A stretch of 8,406 bases of DNA from positions 1 to 8,406 of the forward strand of contig JAUYCY010000127.1 in NCBI GenBank assembly GCA_030692055.1, given 5' to 3'. A program made the translations under genes and the position numbers. This stretch comes from Candidatus Omnitrophota bacterium. Its GTDB lineage: Bacteria > Omnitrophota > Koll11 > Duberdicusellales > 4484-171. Every line of letters starts with the position of its first letter. Position 1 is the stretch's first letter. Shown here piece after piece: positions 1-6,904 of the stretch. Under the pieces are notes generated by a model that was given only the letters and a program-made list of their open reading frames with translations, was not told the DNA's origin and did no database searches.

Positions 1-2879
1 CCTAAACATAGCATAACCCAAATATTTAACAACTCCGCTGTTGCTCCGCTAAGGCGCGCGACAAAGCCTTTAGCCCATAAACTTTTGTCAGGATAAGCAC
101 TGCTTACGATAAAAGAAGAATTTTCTAAAATATTTCTCCCGTAGGTTCTAGGCTCAAGAAAACACACTGCGCAGTTATAAAAATCTTTGAAAAATTCTTC
201 ATATAGCCCTTTCTTTAATACCTCTAAAAGATACTTATATTCCATATGCAGCCAAATAGACTCATTCTCCAGCCAACCCGGAACAAATATCCGGCTTCTG
301 CCGATCTCTAAGGGTTCATCGCTAAGCGAAGCATTTAAGCGGTACATCTTTAGCTTGGCGTCAAAAAGCGAAGATTCTTTTAGGGGCTGATATAAATTTC
401 CATTGCCCTCTACTCTTAAGCTATGCACAGCGCCCTCTAAAAAATGCGGCAAAGCTCTTTTAACAAACCTTGACGCAACAACATATTTATTTTTTACGCT
501 GTAGTTGGCTAAGTTATAACTAAAATAGGCAAAATAGAGGCCGGTTGCTTTGTCCTTAGCTTTGGCTATCGCTAAATTTAATTTAGCGGTGAGATTTTCT
601 AAAAATTTCTCTATTATTTGGCAATTAAGCTCTTTTTGTTTTCCTGCAAGGCAAAAAAAAGTCTGCTTTCTAAACTTTTCTTTTATAGAATTAGATTTAT
701 CCCACCATAAAAAATCTTTATCTTTTTTGTTATCAGCTAAATGGGCCTTAAGCAAATTATTTAGGCTATTTAGAAACCAAAAGACTTCCTGCGCGACTTT
801 AACTTTTACTATGCCTTTGGCTTGTAATCTTTTTATCGCCTCTGTAAGCATAAGGCAGGCGCGCTTGAGCTCTAAAGTTTCACATAACGAAGAACCAAAA
901 AGGGCAGGCAGGCCGTTTAGCGAATCGCACCAGCCGGGCTTATCCGCTTCCATCTCTATGCCGATACCTTGGGGATCTAAACTGGCAGCTTTATTTAAAA
1001 TGAGCGCTAAAATCTTTTCCACCAGATGCGTGCGGTAAATATTTCCCTTTTTATCTCTTAAGAAATTCGCAAATCTTCCTCTTTTTCCTAAAAGCAGCCG
1101 CTTGGCTTGGACCTCCTCTACGCTATGCCACTGATAAACCTTGCTATCTTTTAGATGGTACCTGCGTTTTCTTTCCTTAACTCTGTATTCATCATCCCAA
1201 AAACAATAGTCGTTGCTTAAAAATAGCTCTCCTGCTTTGTCGGGATAAAAGTAGAGAAAACTTTCGATAAGGTCCAAATTATAACGCCAATGGTCTATCC
1301 AGTATCCTTCACCATGGGTAGCCATGGGCTCTCTCAAAGCTCTATCAACCAATCGCTTGGCTAATTCCTCTCTCTTGGCTATTACTATCCCTTCCTCTTT
1401 AAGCAGCTCAAAGAAATCACCTAGATGAAATCCTGTTAGCATTAAAGAAAGAACTTTCTTATCGTTTATGCTAAATTCTTTTAAAATCGCCGATGCCTCT
1501 TTCTTGCCAAAAAATAGCCTCTCTCCTTTTACTACTAGGGGATTATAGCCGTCTATTTTTATAAAATTGAGGAAATAAATAATATTTTTATTTGCGATGA
1601 CAGGATTAAAGAATAAATCCATGCGGCGATTTTGGTTGATGTCGCGGTAATTTGATTCTCCTTCGCTAAAGTAGGAAGGAAGCAGCTTAAATTTATTATA
1701 ATCCCTTTCCAGGTCTCCGTGTTTCCTTGAAAAGATGTAATAGATATCTTTACCGTTAAACTTTCCGCCAGGGGCGGATCCGCCTTTGGCGGAATAGGGG
1801 TAGCCTCCCCGTAAAACATTATCCAGATAAGTACAGCCGATATAGTGGTTTAGCGGACCGGAAGCTGACACGCAAAGGGCGTGATTTTTTATCTCGTCAA
1901 TGATATCTTCGTTTTCTTTGGCCTTCTCTTTTAAAAAGTTCTCATCTAAATTATGCACAAATTCTTTAATCAAATCCGATTTAAAGCAAGAACCAAAAAT
2001 ACTATAAAACTTTTTCTCCTGCCCTGGTTTTAAATTCCATTTGAAATGACTAAAAGTGCAGGGAGTTTTGCCAAAGGTTATCTGATTCAACGGCGGGCGA
2101 AAATGCTTCTTGAAAAAATTAACAGGTGTGGAGTAAGAAGTATCCTCGGCAAAAATCACGCCGGGATCAACAATAAGGTAAGGAGAAACTTTTTTACCGT
2201 TATCGTGGTAAAAAGAACAGTTGAAAGTAGCGCCATCAACATATTTAGTTTGGCTGCTATCTTTTGGGTCGACAATCAGACGAAAAATAGCTAGATTGTC
2301 GTAGATATAGGAACGCATCCATGCTTCCAGGGTACGCGCTAAATCTTTGAGTAAAACATGATTGAGGCCAAAAGGAATAATTTTGGGCAGCCCATCCAGA
2401 ACTTCTAAATCAACTTCTTTATCAGATATGTTTTTTATAGAGAGCTCTCTCACCAGAGCGCCGACAATAGTATTAGGCAAGGTAAAATATTTTACGCAAA
2501 AATTTAAACCCAAATTGGCGTTAGTTTTTCTAATTTCAAAAGAAGCGCTTTTAACCACCATCTCCTCTTCTCTTTCATAATCCGAAATAACACGAAATGG
2601 CTCATAGTTAATTTTATCGCCAATTTTTAAAAATGTGCGAAAACCTACTAGCCCAGCAAAACAATAAGCATTATTGGCAGGAAAGAATTCGGTTATGGAA
2701 TGGTCTTTATCTTTGATACCGAAACTTATTACTCCTTGCGCGCGGTTTACATAAAATACCCAGATAGGAACGCCCCATGCGCCGGCTACACCGGGAAGAA
2801 AATTAGAAAATGGCGGCTTGCTATTATAGTTTTTTATAACAAAACTGCCGTCGTCTCTAAGTAAATAATCGCTGTCCAT
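1..2879 (-). CDS. Cellobiose-phosphorylase-like (GH94-type) protein, C-terminus cut by window edge
   Basis: An uninterrupted frame of 959 codons runs from ATG at 2879 to the left edge with no stop, so the C-terminus is missing. TAGGAG lies 5 nt before the ATG and supports the start. The protein resembles large proteins usually annotated as cellobiose phosphorylase. An N-terminal beta-rich part (about 1-300) precedes a helical part. Blocks that look conserved are FSRKHGDLERDYN (about 383-395), RDINQNRRMD (412-421), MEADKPGWCDSLNGLPALFGSS (643-664), and ENSSFIVSSAYPD with KGFVARLSGATAE near the end of the visible part. Known members phosphorolyse beta-glucosides or beta-glucans in the cytoplasm, releasing a sugar 1-phosphate. 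Neither substrate nor catalytic residue can be fixed here, and I see no signal peptide. Residues 363-372 (SAKGGSAPGG) come from a palindromic DNA insert described separately. Family assignment is from recognition of motifs, not from a search. Confidence 0.8.
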   Translation of the reverse strand, partial: MDSDYLLRDDGSFVIKNYNSKPPFSNFLPGVAGAWGVPIWVFYVNRAQGVISFGIKDKDHSITEFFPANNAYCFAGLVGFRTFLKIGDKINYEPFRVISDYEREEEMVVKSASFEIRKTNANLGLNFCVKYFTLPNTIVGALVRELSIKNISDKEVDLEVLDGLPKIIPFGLNHVLLKDLARTLEAWMRSYIYDNLAIFRLIVDPKDSSQTKYVDGATFNCSFYHDNGKKVSPYLIVDPGVIFAEDTSYSTPVNFFKKHFRPPLNQITFGKTPCTFSHFKWNLKPGQEKKFYSIFGSCFKSDLIKEFVHNLDENFLKEKAKENEDIIDEIKNHALCVSASGPLNHYIGCTYLDNVLRGGYPYSAKGGSAPGGKFNGKDIYYIFSRKHGDLERDYNKFKLLPSYFSEGESNYRDINQNRRMDLFFNPVIANKNIIYFLNFIKIDGYNPLVVKGERLFFGKKEASAILKEFSINDKKVLSLMLTGFHLGDFFELLKEEGIVIAKREELAKRLVDRALREPMATHGEGYWIDHWRYNLDLIESFLYFYPDKAGELFLSNDYCFWDDEYRVKERKRRYHLKDSKVYQWHSVEEVQAKRLLLGKRGRFANFLRDKKGNIYRTHLVEKILALILNKAASLDPQGIGIEMEADKPGWCDSLNGLPALFGSSLCETLELKRACLMLTEAIKRLQAKGIVKVKVAQEVFWFLNSLNNLLKAHLADNKKDKDFLWWDKSNSIKEKFRKQTFFCLAGKQKELNCQIIEKFLENLTAKLNLAIAKAKDKATGLYFAYFSYNLANYSVKNKYVVASRFVKRALPHFLEGAVHSLRVEGNGNLYQPLKESSLFDAKLKMYRLNASLSDEPLEIGRSRIFVPGWLENESIWLHMEYKYLLEVLKKGLYEEFFKDFYNCAVCFLEPRTYGRNILENSSFIVSSAYPDKSLWAKGFVARLSGATAELLNIWVMLCL
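1764..1793 (-). repeat. Tandem 15-nt palindromes inserted in frame in the phosphorylase gene
   Basis: Two adjacent 15-nt palindromes, TCCGCC-AGG-GGCGGA (1764-1778) and TCCGCC-TTT-GGCGGA (1779-1793), occupy exactly 30 nt. They lie in codon phase and encode two pentapeptides, SAKGG and SAPGG (residues 363-372). The GC-rich block contrasts with the AT-rich gene around it. The same TCCGCC...GGCGGA ends occur at 6059-6116. The likely reading is a dispersed palindromic repeat tolerated in a surface loop, as with Rickettsia palindromic elements. That comparison is analogy only. Confidence 0.7.
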
Positions 2880-2884
2880 AATTG

Positions 2885-2890
2885 CTCCTA
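2885..2890 (-). promoter_or_regulatory. Ribosome binding site of the phosphorylase-like gene
   Basis: TAGGAG on the minus strand, 5 nt before the ATG at 2879. It fixes the start codon. The 45-nt gap to the stop of the four-helix-bundle gene holds no clear promoter, so the phosphorylase may be read from upstream, through the inverted-repeat cassette. Confidence 0.7.
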
Positions 2891-2897
2891 ATCAAAA

Positions 2898-3332
2898 CAG
2901 AAGACAGAGGTCAGATGACAGATGTCAGAGAGAATGCCAGTTGTAGCTTAAGCGATAAAGCATAGCATTGACTTCGTCATACTTAATATCTAACTTCCTG
3001 TGCGCTTCGTTGGTTATATATTTACAATCTCTGGCAAAATCAAGCCAACCCCTTGTTTCTTCGGATGAACCCAAAGAATCATTTAGATGCCTGACAAATA
3101 CCTGTTCATATTTACGCTTGGCATAGCCTTCACGAATATTTATAGCTACTGATCTTGAAGAACGCATTATCTGTCGGTTAAGGAATATACTTCTTCTTTG
3201 GGAAATTTCTTGGTTATTTCAAATATTTCCATTGCAAGTTTATATGTTGTTTCATATACCTTTAAATCCCTTATATTTTTAATTGCCATTCTGCCTCCCC
3301 TCTGTCTTCTGACTTCCGACCTCTGACTTCTG
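2898..3332. mobile_element. Four-helix-bundle gene cassette bounded by low-complexity inverted repeats
   Basis: The frameshifted four-helix-bundle gene is enclosed by two 31-nt arms, 2898-2928 and 3302-3332, that are inverted copies at 25 of 31 positions. All mismatches but one are A/T swaps. The outermost 15 nt match at 14 positions, and 2898-2910 (CAGAAGACAGAGG) also has a perfect inverted copy at 3299-3311. The arms are made of short degenerate CTGACTT/CTCTG units. Single-stranded DNA or RNA of the cassette would fold into a long stem with the gene in its loop. This resembles intervening sequences in 23S rRNA, whose ends pair and whose loops carry genes of this family. Calling it a mobile cassette is inference; no target-site duplication was recognised. 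Confidence 0.55.
2925..3289 (-). pseudogene. Four-helix-bundle protein of the 23S rRNA intervening-sequence (S23/IVP) family, frameshifted
   Basis: ATG at 3289, preceded by GGAGG 4 nt away, opens a 40-residue frame (MAIKNIRDLKVYETTYKLAM... ending SLTDR) that stops at TAA 3169-3167. The next frame starts at ATG 3167 and gives 80 residues beginning MRSSRSVAINIREGYAKRK and ending at TGA 2925. Joined by one added base (GAC-CAG in place of GACAG), they make a normal-length protein of 121 residues with the family's LTDQI..RSSRSVA..I.EG core. So a 1-nt deletion splits the gene. Stop and restart overlap as TAATG, so coupled translation of two pieces remains possible, as does a sequencing error. The family is helical and is related to the Avd accessory protein of diversity-generating retroelements; the role of free-standing copies is unknown. 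The TGA and last codons lie in the left inverted repeat arm. Confidence 0.85.
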
Positions 3333-3343
3333 CTATATGCAAA

Positions 3344-3985
3344 TTATTCGTATAAATCCAAAACCTCCCGCAGCGAGGATACAACTTTTTTATTTCTATA
3401 TTTCTTTACTGAGGAAAGCGCACTGGAGCCGCCCCTTACAAACACAAAATCAACATCAGCGCGCCTGGCTGTTTCTAAATCAATATCCATATCACCGATA
3501 AAAACAGCATCTTGCTTATTTAGCGAAGATTTCTTTATAATCGTATTCAATATTTTAGGATTGGGTTTGTTGCTTTTGATCTCATCGGCACAAAGAACCA
3601 TATTAAAGAATTTCTTTATTCCCAGCGCCTCTAAAATCAAATTGGTGAAATAACTCGGCCGATTTGACGCGATGGCAGTGATTTTTTTCCTTCGCTTTAA
3701 CGTGCATAGAAGTTGCTTTGCGTGGGGCCTTAGTTTAGAGTACGTTAAAACTGCTTTTTTATGGTGGGCGCGATAAATCGCCAATGCTCTTTTAAAATCT
3801 TTTTTAGAAAAAAAAGTTTTCATGAAAACTTTGTCGCCTCTGCCAACTTCCCGTTTCGCTTTTTCGTAACTGACGGCCGGGCAACCTAATTTCTTAAGCG
3901 TAAAATTTAAACTTTTCTCTATCGCTCTGTAAGCGTTAGCTAAAGTTCCGTCTAAATCAAAGATGTAAAGCCTCTTGCTGATCAT
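3344..3985 (-). CDS. HAD-superfamily hydrolase, phosphoglycolate-phosphatase-like
   Basis: The 213-residue protein has all four HAD motifs. Motif I is DLDGT with nucleophile D10 and acid D12; motif II is S107 in ASNRP; motif III is K140 in SNKPNP; motif IV is GD165xxxD169. The helical cap (about residues 16-85) is of the C1 type seen in phosphoglycolate phosphatase and related small-phosphoester phosphatases. Such enzymes are cytoplasmic, Mg-dependent and often of broad specificity, so the substrate is not predicted. Length is typical. The ATG at 3985 begins seven codons before motif I, as expected, but no Shine-Dalgarno sequence precedes it. The upstream 120 nt up to bioY are an inverted repeat element. 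The gene may be co-transcribed with bioY through that element; no independent promoter is clear. Confidence 0.85.
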   Translation of the reverse strand: MISKRLYIFDLDGTLANAYRAIEKSLNFTLKKLGCPAVSYEKAKREVGRGDKVFMKTFFSKKDFKRALAIYRAHHKKAVLTYSKLRPHAKQLLCTLKRRKKITAIASNRPSYFTNLILEALGIKKFFNMVLCADEIKSNKPNPKILNTIIKKSSLNKQDAVFIGDMDIDLETARRADVDFVFVRGGSSALSSVKKYRNKKVVSSLREVLDLYE

Positions 3986-3993
3986 ATATGTAA

Positions 3994-4113
3994 GTAGCTA
4001 TATGCAAAGCGCAAGGCGCAGAGCGCATGGCGTTTAAAAACAATTCTGCAAAGACTTATAAAAATTTGTAGCTATTCTTAGCGCTTCGCGCTATGCGCTA
4101 TGCGAATTACTAC
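3994..4113. repeat. Gene-less low-complexity inverted repeat between bioY and the HAD gene
   Basis: Arms 3994-4030 and 4077-4113 are imperfect inverted copies. The core (4004-4030 against 4077-4103) matches at 19 of 27 positions, 18 of the first 23, and GTAG/CTAC closes the outside. The arms consist of GCGCA/AGCGC-type short units (GCAAAGCGCAAGGCGCAGAG; GCGCTATGCGCTATGC), far richer in GC than the 46-nt AT-rich centre. The right arm ends on the bioY stop codon (4110-4112) and the left arm ends 8 nt before the HAD start, so the element fills the whole spacer. The architecture matches the arms of the four-helix-bundle cassette. Confidence 0.6.
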
Positions 4114-4643
4114 TTTATTTTTGTAGCTATAATGGATGCTAGGCTTATTTTAAAAATCTCTCCGCCGATAAACGGTAAAAGCCCCGCCGATACCGCAGAA
4201 GCAAAAGAGAATTTATGAAATAGCATAAGCCAAATGATTCCTGGTGTGTAAATAACGCTAGCTACTAAAAAAAAGAAAAAAAAGTTTTTGAAAAAAGTTC
4301 TCTCCCCGGGCAGCAGGCGAGAAAAAATAATAGTGGCCGCAAAGAAACCTAGTATATAACCGCCCGTGGGCCCCAAAAGATAGATAAAACCGCTGCCAAA
4401 ATTGGTAAAGACCGGTAACCCTACCAGTCCAAAAAATACATACGCCCCTTGGGAGAGAAACGCTTTGTTTTTAAGAAAAATTATACTTAGGTACACTACA
4501 AATGTTTGCATGGTTATAGGCACAGGCGTAAAAAAAAGAGGTATACGCACGTAGGCAGACAGAACCATTAAAAAAGTAAATGCTAAAATAAGAACGATTT
4601 CAAAAATAAGTTGCTGTTTTTGGCTGCAAGAAATTGCTTTCAT
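4110..4643 (-). CDS. bioY: BioY, biotin-binding S component of an ECF transporter
   Basis: The 177-residue, very hydrophobic protein has about six membrane segments (roughly 12-30, 36-57, 61-80, 86-108, 118-140 and 148-175). It carries BioY signatures: FTPVPITMQTF (38-48) and LLGPTGGYILGF (89-100). BioY binds biotin in the cytoplasmic membrane and in most bacteria works with the shared energising module EcfA/EcfA'/EcfT, which is not in this window. Some solitary BioY proteins are reported to transport on their own. The family's C-terminal Asp-x-x-Lys, which contacts biotin, appears here as E162-I-F-K165, a conservative change. The ATG at 4643 has a strong AAGGAG 5 nt upstream. No biotin synthesis gene is adjacent, which fits scavenging, though only a few genes are visible. 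Confidence 0.9.
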   Translation of the reverse strand: MKAISCSQKQQLIFEIVLILAFTFLMVLSAYVRIPLFFTPVPITMQTFVVYLSIIFLKNKAFLSQGAYVFFGLVGLPVFTNFGSGFIYLLGPTGGYILGFFAATIIFSRLLPGERTFFKNFFFFFLVASVIYTPGIIWLMLFHKFSFASAVSAGLLPFIGGEIFKISLASIIATKIK

Positions 4644-4810: not shown

Positions 4811-4861
4811 GGGCAGGTGTACGTTATTTAGAATTACGCCTGGGATACCATCAATTAACCC

Positions 4862-4888
4862 AAAAATGCATTTGAAAAATGTATTTTT
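4862..4888. repeat. AT-rich hairpin
   Basis: AAAAATGCAT (4862-4871) pairs with ATGTATTTTT (4879-4888), a 10-bp stem with one G-T pair and a 7-nt loop. It is the first of a run of hairpins filling 4862-5117 between the phospholipase and bioY. Confidence 0.5.
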
Positions 4889-4899
4889 CGCCTGAAGGG

Positions 4900-5009
4900 C
4901 AGCCCTTTATTTTTCATAAGAAGATTCTCATTCGTAGAAATAAAGGGCTGGGTTAACCCAGCACCAATTTTCTGCGTATGAGTATTCTTCTTTGGAAAAA
5001 TTGGTGCTG
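4900..5009. repeat. Mirror pair of 51-nt hairpins around a 16-nt palindrome
   Basis: Hairpin A (4900-4950) has a perfect 13-bp stem, CAGCCCTTTATTT with AAATAAAGGGCTG. Hairpin B (4959-5009) has a perfect 13-bp stem, CAGCACCAATTTT with AAAATTGGTGCTG. Both are 51 nt and are symmetric about 4954.5, the centre of the palindrome GCTGGGTTAACCCAGC (4947-4962). Read inverted, B has the same end bases (CAGC/GCTG) and similar 25-nt loops sharing AAGAAGA, CTCAT and AGAAA. The stem interior differs at five pairs, each still paired. The layout resembles inverted REP doublets (BIMEs). The type of element is not recognised. Confidence 0.65.
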
Positions 5010-5018
5010 CTCGTTGAG

Positions 5019-5117
5019 GGAAAAATGCCGTGTACCTTTTAGTGTATTAGGATTGTTATGCAACCTTTTGTTTTCGATAGAATTATAACCTTTTTGTGCT
5101 TTCAGCGGCATTTTTCC
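5019..5117. repeat. 99-nt element with 12-nt perfect inverted ends
   Basis: GGAAAAATGCCG (5019-5030) and CGGCATTTTTCC (5106-5117) are exact inverted copies enclosing 75 AT-rich nt. The right end lies 2 nt beyond the phospholipase stop codon. The interior contains AATTATAACCT (minus-strand AGGTTATAATT), an 11-mer also found inside the 6161-6290 element. It could act in transcript folding downstream of the phospholipase gene, but it has no T-tract, so a standard terminator is not supported. Confidence 0.5.
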
Positions 5118-5119
5118 GG

Positions 5120-6037
5120 TTAATATTTTCTCTTTCTTAAAATATAAGCTAGAGAAAAAAACTTTTTTATTCGTTCTTTTTTTAAAGCCCTAAGAAGCTC
5201 GTCAGCGTGCTGCAAAACCTCCTCTTCTCCCTTCTTAACCAACTCCGCGCCTCTGGCAAAATCCCCCCAAGGGAAAGACTCCAAATTAGGAGAAAACAAA
5301 TAATCTATTCCTGTAAGGCTATCTTCAATGATTCTCTTATAGCGTATCCTATCAGCTAAATTCATAACATCCATAGCGCTTCTCATAGCTGGGAAATAAT
5401 AACCGGAACTTTCTAAGTTTATTGCGATTATAAAATCAGCCTTATCCTTAATTATTTTTGCCGGTATCGGCATCAACACTCCGCCGTCTATTAAAATTTT
5501 ATTTCCCCATTTTATGGGAGGAAAAAAGCCCGGATAAGCACAAGACGCTAAAGCAGCCATACTTAAAGGGCCACTGGCAAGGCATATGGGTTCACCTTTA
5601 GCTAAATCTACGCTGGTGGCGTAAAATGGAATTTTACAATCAGAAAAAGAAAAATCCTCAAAAATATTTTTGAATACCTTAAAAAATGTTTTAAAGTCAG
5701 CTAAAGAAGGTTTAATTATGCGTAAATTCCAAATGCAAAATTCCTTGACCAAGCTAAGGCATTTCTCAGAAAATAGCCTTTTCGCCTCAACATTGGTGGG
5801 GGGGAAGCTATCCTTAAGCAAGGCTATTGCTTTCTGGTGATTATTGATGACACGAAAAATCTTTTCTTCTAAGGCCTTTGTGTCGGGGTTAAGGGCATAA
5901 AGCCCACCGATAACTGCGCCTATGGAAGTTCCGGAAATTACATCTATTTTTACTTTTAGCTTTTCCAGGGCTCTTAAGGCGCCGATATGAAAAAATCCAA
6001 GCGCCACTCCACCACCTAAAGCAAGACCGATCTTCAA
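5120..6037 (-). CDS. Patatin-like phospholipase, RssA-like
   Basis: The 305-residue protein carries the complete patatin set: the glycine-rich oxyanion loop GGGVALG (8-14), the nucleophile elbow G-T-S38-I-G, and the catalytic D184-G-G. The remaining domain motifs (SDCKIPFYATSVDL about 132-145; SCAYPGFFPP about 165-174) fit bacterial patatin-like lipid acyl hydrolases of the RssA/YchK type. There is no signal peptide or membrane segment, so it should act in the cytoplasm or at the inner membrane face; its lipid substrate is unknown. The start is TTG at 6037: AAGGAGG lies 9 nt upstream, the first residues (MKIGLALGGG) match the usual family start, and an earlier TTG is closed at once by TGA. 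Hairpin elements begin 5 nt upstream of the Shine-Dalgarno and 2 nt past the stop. Confidence 0.9.
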   Translation of the reverse strand: MKIGLALGGGVALGFFHIGALRALEKLKVKIDVISGTSIGAVIGGLYALNPDTKALEEKIFRVINNHQKAIALLKDSFPPTNVEAKRLFSEKCLSLVKEFCIWNLRIIKPSLADFKTFFKVFKNIFEDFSFSDCKIPFYATSVDLAKGEPICLASGPLSMAALASCAYPGFFPPIKWGNKILIDGGVLMPIPAKIIKDKADFIIAINLESSGYYFPAMRSAMDVMNLADRIRYKRIIEDSLTGIDYLFSPNLESFPWGDFARGAELVKKGEEEVLQHADELLRALKKERIKKFFSLAYILRKRKY

Positions 6038-6058: not shown

Positions 6059-6116
6059 TCCGCCATTCGCCTTAGACGAATGGCGAGATCTCGTCAAAAT
6101 CAAAGATTTTGGCGGA
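6059..6116. repeat. TCCGCCA/TGGCGGA foldback with internal hairpins
   Basis: TCCGCCA (6059-6065) and TGGCGGA (6110-6116) are inverted ends. Inside are CGCCATTCG (6061-6069) with CGAATGGCG (6077-6085), the palindrome GAGATCTC, and AAAATC with GATTTT. The outer stem and first hairpin share bases, so two alternative folds compete. The ends are the same as the in-gene palindromes at 1764-1793, suggesting one dispersed family. The element sits in the phospholipase leader, next to its ribosome binding site. Confidence 0.55.
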
Positions 6117-6162: not shown

Positions 6163-6290
6163 GAATTGAACCCCGCTCTTTTGGCGAAGCTATAGATAAT
6201 ACCACTATAATGAATACTCCAAACTTACAGGTTATAATTTACTCGCTAAATTATCAATCTACTCCGCCAAAAGGGCGGGGTCAAATTCGG
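6161..6290. mobile_element. 130-nt MITE-like element with 26-nt inverted ends
   Basis: The ends 6161-6186 and 6265-6290 are inverted copies at 22 of 26 positions, including ACCCCGC and CTTTTGGCG blocks. They enclose 78 AT-rich nt with no open frame. Size and ends fit a miniature inverted-repeat element, but no transposase and no flanking duplication are visible, so mobility is inferred only. Confidence 0.5.
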
Positions 6291-6296
6291 CTACAC

Positions 6297-6313
6297 CCCG
6301 ACGTTGCGTCGGG
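6297..6313. repeat. Short GC hairpin
   Basis: CCCGAC and GTCGGG flank a 5-nt loop. No T-tract follows on either strand, so it is not a clear terminator. Confidence 0.4.
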
Positions 6314-6323
6314 ATAAGCCTCA

Positions 6324-6367
6324 TTTGAAAAACAAATAGGGCAGACACGAATTATGCCTGCCCTATT
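6324..6367 (-). terminator. Intrinsic terminator of the small membrane protein gene
   Basis: On the minus strand AATAGGGCAG pairs perfectly with CTGCCCTATT (6367-6358 with 6344-6335; 10 bp, 13-nt loop) and is followed by TGTTTTTC. It starts 16 nt after the stop codon at 6384, a classic placement. Confidence 0.8.
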
Positions 6368-6676: not shown

Positions 6677-6716
6677 TGATTAATTGCTGGAGTTTCCCCA
6701 TTTTTTAAATCTCATT

Positions 6717-6803
6717 GACGGATGCATACGGATGGTTACGGATTCATACGGATAATTATAGGATTTATCCGTTTGCATCCGCTGGAATCTGTTTGCATCC
6801 GTC
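6717..6803. repeat. Low-complexity inverted repeat with 10-nt periodicity
   Basis: Arms 6717-6755 and 6765-6803 are inverted copies at 30 of 39 positions around a 9-nt centre. The left arm is four steps of GGAT spaced exactly 10 nt apart (GGATGCATAC, GGATGGTTAC, GGATTCATAC, GGAT). The right arm mirrors this, with AGAT at one step. It forms a long hairpin between the ATP-grasp stop and the membrane protein promoter, about 40 nt upstream of the -35 box. It shares the design of the arms around the four-helix-bundle gene, with a different unit. The rest of the spacer (6804-6904) shows nothing recognisable. Confidence 0.6.
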
Positions 6804-6904
6804 CATGGATAATTATAGATTTTAAATTTTATTAGCGATTGGTTCATATATACTTAGACAAAAATAGCTGATAATTTTGGGAAATGTCCAGTTAATTGGT
6901 TTTG

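Follow-up and report, generated by a model that had tools for sequence, protein, structure and literature searches.

What are the two 51-nt hairpins that stand side by side in opposite orientation between two genes of an Omnitrophota genome, and why do both of their stems remain paired where their sequences differ? The locus lies in a stretch of 8,406 nt (contig JAUYCY010000127.1, assembly GCA_030692055.1), which in its full length is referred to here as the window. A first-pass annotation had described two inverted hairpins at 4900-4950 and 4959-5009, and these are indeed the only perfect stems in the window of at least 13 bp with a loop of 10 to 40 nt, against an expected number of 0.02 per Markov-1 resampled window (200 resamplings). 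When both copies are read in the same orientation, the 5' stem differs at positions 5, 7, 8, 9, and 10, and the partner positions 47, 45, 44, 43, and 42 are changed as well. All five pairs are Watson-Crick in both copies, which confirms the earlier description of five stem pairs altered on both sides with pairing retained. The inverted kinship of the hairpins is upheld too, with half-to-half homology extending 72 nt outward from the center, past the hairpins themselves. TTAA is found at the center and at both ends of a palindromic element at 4855-5123; the span of 4900 to 5009 given earlier is thus correct for the hairpins and too narrow for the element, whose parts are as follows.

4855-5123: whole element, two adjacent inverted units, placed by the TTAA positions, the folds, and the shorter gaps in loci L001 and L002 with conserved gene order
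4855-4956: left unit, closed by TTAACCC/GGGTTAA, with a cloverleaf as minimum-energy fold and a homolog in G001:C20 (L032)
4862-4888: left-unit arm 1, an AAAATGC-type hairpin also present in genomes G001, G002, and G008
4890-4900: left-unit mini-arm GCC/GGC, from the folds and the comparison of units
4900-4950: left-unit 51-nt hairpin, arms ACCCAGCCCTTTAT as read from the center, matched by covariance model R1 (described below) in G001 and G012
4950-4959: central dyad GGGTTAACCC, from the alignment of the halves
4953-5123: right unit, inverted, closed by TTAACCC/GGTTAA, a predicted cloverleaf on the plus strand
4959-5009: right-unit 51-nt hairpin, arms ACCCAGCACCAATTTT, with stem and loop like those of class A hairpins, e.g., G001:C92 (L121)
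5010-5018: right-unit mini-arm CTC/GAG, from the folds and the comparison of units
5019-5117: right-unit arm 1, GGAAAAATGCCG (5019-5030) with CGGCATTTTTCC (5106-5117), from the folds

Folded as one strand, 4895-5015 is predicted to form a single long hairpin in which the halves are paired together (-59.3 kcal/mol, z = -9.2), an energy equalled by 0 of 200 shuffles, and the wider region 4840-5125 takes the same long-hairpin shape when folded as DNA (z = -6.7). Separately, the hairpins reach -21.0 and -19.2 kcal/mol. That the halves pair best with one another rather than as two hairpins counts against the reading preferred below, in which the hairpins are the arms of a mobile element. Taken alone, the left unit is predicted to fold as a cloverleaf consisting of the closing helix TTAACCC/GGGTTAA, the AAAATGC-type arm, the mini-arm, and the 51-nt hairpin. 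The right unit gives a cloverleaf on the plus strand, with the mini-arm being absent from the prediction for the other strand. The full cloverleaf was the minimum-energy fold in 8 of the 13 units folded.

The doublet is placed between bioY (4110-4643, minus strand) and a patatin-like gene (5120-6037, minus strand), whose stop codon (5120-5122) falls within the right-hand TTAA (5120-5123) and whose protein has its closest named relatives in Candidatus Omnitrophica/Omnitrophota. The order DDL-p73-patatin-bioY-HAD is retained in L001 and L002 (contigs of G001 and G002, respectively), where the patatin-bioY gap measures 185 and 195 bp versus 476 bp in the window, the gap boundaries in these and all other L loci being set by protein matches. 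Since the gap is longer in the window at conserved gene order, the 4855-5123 element is probably an insertion. In the more distant loci L005, L007, and L008, the two genes are about 103, 135, and 165 bp apart, respectively. L006 also has a long patatin-bioY gap (~480 bp), which contains other composites of this hairpin kind. A second gene-less composite occupies the p73-patatin gap of the window, which measures 346 bp versus 72, 145, and 76 bp in L001, L002, and L003, the gap of L002 containing one single module. Finally, the DDL-p73 gap is 305 bp in L001, where it holds a gene-less composite, versus 110 bp in L002 and 107 bp in L003. At three intergenic sites, then, gene order is kept and an element is present in some genomes and absent in others, with the gaps of L001 to L003 too diverged to fix exact element ends or a target-site duplication; blastn of the syntenic loci gave nothing beyond weak chance-level pieces. 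The element has the marks of a miniature inverted-repeat transposable element (MITE), namely, terminal inverted repeats (TTAACCC/GGTTAA), no gene, and a site at which L001 and L002, with their shorter gap, are probably empty.

The second composite of the window is flanked by a hairpin of another kind, here called a GA-module.

6170-6281: second gene-less member, class D-like arms ACCCCGCTCTTTTGGCG/CGCCAAAAGGGCGGGGT and a 78-nt loop (the class D nuclease elements, treated below, are L213, L220, L223, and L224)
6284-6325, minus strand: GA-module beside the second element, a hairpin whose internal loop is GA/GA

Hairpins with GA/GA loops (TC/TC on the other strand) stand on both sides in 46 of 66 class A copies, by foot sequence, and an open search beside 65 copies returned 85 modules, 71 of them with the GA/GA loop. 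The window doublet is without GA-modules. A search requiring 2x2 internal loops between stems of 5+5 bp gave no excess of GA/GA; the modules emerged once the inner stem was allowed to be shorter or the outer stem was fixed as AAT. Their outer ends lie near a Shine-Dalgarno (SD)-like GGAG in 15 of 85 cases versus 133 of 2600 control windows, and adjoining modules lacking a hairpin between them, which could represent an empty target, were encountered 0 times in the loci examined. Within the flanking module of the second element lies a 58-nt hairpin-forming stretch (6059-6116, TCCGCC...GGCGGA), apparently a nested insertion. Two further repeats of the window are a palindrome TTCCGCCAGGGGCGGATCCGCCTTTGGCGGAA at 1763-1794, perhaps within a long minus-strand gene, and an inverted block of 10-nt units ACGGATNNNN at 6713-6807, upstream of a 73-aa gene.

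The idea that copies should exist elsewhere was borne out in other Omnitrophota by both DNA search and covariance model. In a DNA search of 12 related genomes, G001 and G012 yielded clear copies, and G008 and G002 yielded arm 1; the best relative of the element in other Omnitrophota MAGs has an E value of 1.0e-29, and the left-unit homolog L032 shows 86% identity over query positions 16-132 of window 4840-5130. Nine copies of the 51-nt hairpin, all from the window, G001, and G012, were used to build covariance model R1, which at E <= 0.01 matches 20 of the 384 Omnitrophota genomes, with 5 places in G001 and 6 in G012 once opposite-strand duplicates are removed. Judged by eye, 9 of the 20 contain family members, 10 contain apparently unrelated hairpins, and 1 (G003) is ambiguous; hairpins of the CCCAGCAC type in further genomes were also found by R1. 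The arm pattern CCCAGCACTWATTTT occurs in 48 of 384 genomes, with a maximum of 40 forward and 34 reverse matches per genome, compared with 0-1 per genome and strand for the reversed-pattern control. Pattern CCCAGCCCTWWWTTT occurs in 31 of 384, with 2+2 matches in G001 and 0+2 in G012; the other 29 genomes, with pattern matches only, have one each, or two on different contigs in G325 and G341. Hairpin lengths in 56 listed copies are mostly near 33-38, 47-55, 98-106, and 262-268 nt, and the related copies occupy many different sequence contexts. Plasmid and phage records gave 0 matches to the element, viral contigs contained neither a nuclease relative nor a class A hairpin, and no literature on these elements appeared among the matches listed, a search to which most subscription papers were out of scope.

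Additional repeats were seen in the same genomes. In G006, many contigs end near TTAACCGGAAAAATGCATTTGAAAAA (e.g., L037, L046, L058, L059, L060, and L063), and a longer repeat with such ends may break this assembly. In G012, the copies at L052, L053, L054, and L057 carry a further hairpin (the GCCTGCCTACCGTCAGGCAGG region) within the loop of one hairpin, which is absent from copies L033 and L045; from this, the elements seem to be targets for other elements.

Whether pairing matters, as the first-pass annotation had held, receives a divided answer. Related copies do mostly pair via two-sided changes. Across units, arm 1 is paired in 96 of 100 cells (10 distinct rows), and 10 of its 10 positions show two-sided change, a level reached by 0 of 2000 shuffles; for the mini-arm, 12 of 12 cells are paired (reached by 79 of 2000 shuffles), and for the 51-nt arm, 65 of 70 (reached by 14 of 2000). 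None of these is a clean probability, as the rows are few and related and the stems were chosen from folds, with a bias toward pairing. The tally leaves out G012_C96_R and copies L053, L054, L055, and L057, as well as arm 2 of G008 and G002, which is a different hairpin. Two-sided stem change, however, need not imply selection on pairing. In G012:C90, the two sides of the central dyad carry an identical change, at the cost of one pair in each hairpin, and this points to copying between halves as one source of the symmetry.

Larger relatives of the hairpins contain a gene. Five of the 56 listed copies, of 262-268 nt, each enclose an open reading frame (ORF) of 77-79 aa that begins just inside the 5' arm and stops at the 3' arm, and all five ORFs exceed the curated cut-off of PF01541 (GIY-YIG). 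No GIY-YIG ORF was seen in the window elements. With a profile of the five ORFs, 41 of 384 genomes show relatives at E <= 1e-15, as do 14 of 18 chosen genomes at E <= 1e-4; the stricter threshold yielded 55 nuclease places, 30 of which were examined as loci, and later searches brought the number examined to 58. Perfect inverted arms of at least 11 nt lie within 80 nt of the matched gene in 46 of these 58 (43/54 plus 3/4), compared with 0 of 1080 mononucleotide-shuffled flank pairs. The other 12 have no such arms within 80 nt, L219 among them having arms within 120 nt. We thus observe a multicopy family whose arms enclose a nuclease gene in other genomes, a class A nuclease being demonstrated in 12 of the 48 genomes with class A arms. 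Two PDB sequences match the nuclease profile, the UPF0213 hypothetical proteins 1zg2 and 1ywl (E = 3.5e-6 and 0.0015, respectively).

Nuclease relatives also occur in four Kuenen-/Shapirobacteria genomes, with inverted arms in 0 of 17. At L296, L300, and L312 of the Shapirobacteria genome G393, the relative starts directly after an apparent tRNA 3' end (by eye), and at L300 and L312 the tRNA-end-like sequence recurs after the gene, as if inserted with a direct repeat. The window itself holds a gene of the 23S_rRNA_IVP type (2925-3167, minus strand) between imperfect inverted arms at 2898-2922 and 3308-3332 (21 of 25 positions matching), in a layout like that of the nuclease elements.

Arms and nucleases diverge together. 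Eight arm types were assigned by eye from the arm sequences, with four odd arms (L210, L212, L258, and L278) placed in the nearest type.

Type A: ACCCAGCACTAATTTT
Type B: ACCCCACACCCAGC
Type C: ACCCCGCACCTTYTT
Type D: ACCCCGCCCTTTTGG
Type E: ACCCCCACACCAATTA
Type F: ACCCCGTTAGAGA
Type G: ACCCAGCCCTCTA
Type H: AACTTTTTGGAT, with two identical proteins

The tree was built from proteins alone and comprises 42 of the first 54, excluding the 11 that lack arms of 11 nt or more, along with L276, which has 17-nt arms of its own type and an interrupted gene. On this tree, the eight types require 7 changes, which is the minimum possible, whereas shuffled arm labels require a mean of 25.7, with 0 of 200 shuffles as low as 7. 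Types E, F, and H each form one side of a branch. Types A, B, C, and D each require two changes, and in the bootstraps C never makes up one side of a branch. Arm type therefore agrees with nuclease phylogeny.

How closely do the window hairpins belong to these nucleases? The left hairpin arms are close to the gene-bearing type G arms of L266, the nearest gene-bearing element, which has ACCCAGCCCT in common with the window arms and then diverges. The right hairpin resembles class A hairpins in both stem and loop, as in L121. Three results weigh against the preferred reading here. Arms identical to those of the window were found around none of the 58 nuclease genes, and a search with the L266 protein gave none closer (the next match by E value has 56% identity). 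G012, with its six R1 places, gave 0 matches to the nuclease profile at E <= 1e-4. G181, with 37+37 arm matches, has weak nuclease matches only (best E = 1.1e-11); the two that were inspected comprise one with class F arms and one that is armless. Also against the preferred reading stand the 12 nuclease genes lacking such arms within 80 nt, the demonstration of a class A nuclease in no more than 12 of the 48 genomes with class A arms, the 0 of 17 armed relatives in Kuenen-/Shapirobacteria, and a G012 copy that adjoins a RAYT-like gene. Because there is no exact-arm gene-bearing copy and no nuclease match in G012, the link between window and nuclease is, on the sequences compared, one of family resemblance and not of an exact cognate pair.

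We consider it reasonably likely, with a probability of roughly 0.6, that the window hairpins form the central arms of a palindromic insertion of 269 bp, which has no gene and belongs to a nuclease-linked, hairpin-bounded mobile family of Omnitrophota. The hairpins, together with the nuclease gene enclosed by their relatives, suggest a hairpin-plus-nuclease kind of selfish DNA. Full members would carry the gene for a GIY-YIG nuclease of ~77 aa between their arms, and gene-less copies would behave like MITEs. The nuclease may recognize its cognate arm as a folded single strand and cleave near the hairpin foot, after which repair or recombination would copy the element into new sites, and gene-less copies with matching arms could be copied in trans. 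The arm sequences of the two window hairpins would then differ through descent from different arm types, with copying between halves, the requirement for folding, or both together maintaining the symmetry.

A small GIY-YIG protein paired with a dispersed repeat may also serve its host. In Neisseria, Ssn is a GIY-YIG single-strand nuclease and NTS is its repeated target, and the hairpins could by this precedent be binding sites of an Ssn-like nuclease that tune natural transformation. Both systems combine a small single-domain GIY-YIG protein with a genome-wide multicopy repeat, and of the 9 class A nuclease genomes searched, all 9 have a ComEC domain and 8 have DprA. These families are common, however, with ComEC and DprA matched in 10 and 11 of 14 control genomes, respectively. 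The present system further differs from Ssn/NTS in that the gene lies between the repeat arms, arm type tracks nuclease phylogeny, and gene-less derivatives are compound palindromes; a gene inside the repeat fits a selfish unit, and we regard a host-serving role as unlikely.

The resemblance to the layout of repetitive extragenic palindromes (REP/BIME) pointed out earlier is real, since the hairpins form intergenic inverted pairs. Under that explanation, which appears improbable, they would be nonautonomous units mobilized by a RAYT, a Y1 HUH transposase. The proposed check for an associated transposase gave a mixed outcome: Y1_Tnp genes are present in 7 of 12 genomes, and the G012:C90 copy lies directly upstream of a RAYT-like ORF, but G001, in which the element is multicopy, has 0 Y1_Tnp matches, albeit in a MAG that may be incomplete. 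In 20 RAYT loci (117 kb) there were 0 GA-modules, and in 178 kb of Omnitrophota sequence from elsewhere there were 6, a contrast that is small but also speaks against RAYT. According to PMC3733652, a REP is a palindrome of 20-40 bp, one end of which carries GTAG or CGTC as an unpaired tag. REP/BIME/REPIN systems (PMC3733652, PMC2817692) and the present elements have in common short intergenic inverted palindromes, high copy number, and gene-less derivatives, but the feet here are ACCC at the center and GCCC/GCTC outside, without either tag, and the enclosed enzyme is a GIY-YIG nuclease and not a Y1 HUH transposase. RAYT was dropped as the main reading on the Y1_Tnp distribution, the GA-module counts, and the GIY-YIG enclosure. 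At G012:C90 (L076, ~2393-3400), where the RAYT-like ORF adjoins the element copy, a AAATGAGACATTTNAAGTCAGACTT repeat stands on either side of the ORF.

About equally improbable is that the doublet is a MITE of a DDE transposon with a TA or TTAA target, bearing TTAACCC ends and unrelated to the nuclease. The TTAA at the center and both ends, the terminal inverted repeats, and the probable insertion at a conserved gene pair would all suit such an origin, but many related hairpins are flanked by GA-modules and not by TTAA ends. An integron attC site, of which the core is GTTRRRY, was rejected since the central GTTAACC does not fit it. That the doublet is a structural or regulatory RNA (a terminator or 5' leader) under selection for RNA folding, the structural role being one that the first-pass annotation had offered, is very improbable, since the strong fold and the module ends near SD-like GGAG that would favor it are set against 0 Rfam families at gathering score for the window and 12 related loci (five weak E-value matches each lie far below their gathering scores), a near mirror symmetry that gives similar folds on both strands, the absence of the element from the patatin-bioY gap of L001 and L002, and the variety of contexts in which copies occur.

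Nuclease-linked hairpin mobility, the reading we prefer, has a further parallel in homing endonucleases, in which, as is proposed here, a GIY-YIG nuclease is the selfish driver. According to PMC1564403, these enzymes cut the uninterrupted site and do not recognize their own mobile DNA, whereas here the gene is flanked by arms that codiverge with the nuclease. More tentatively, and with the odds somewhat against it, the family may represent a new class of mobile element, in which a lone single-domain GIY-YIG nuclease encoded within its own arms would, with no transposase, spread the hairpin as folded single-stranded DNA, arms and nuclease codiverging into specificity types and gene-less compounds being mobilized in trans. 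If this is true, a nuclease of ~77 aa and its arms would be among the smallest selfish DNA units, and the many natural nuclease-arm pairs would be available for testing single-strand sequence specificity. In addition, RAYTs would be joined by another kind of enzyme linked to short palindromic repeats, and the presence of some hairpin repeats dispersed through Omnitrophota genomes would be explained.
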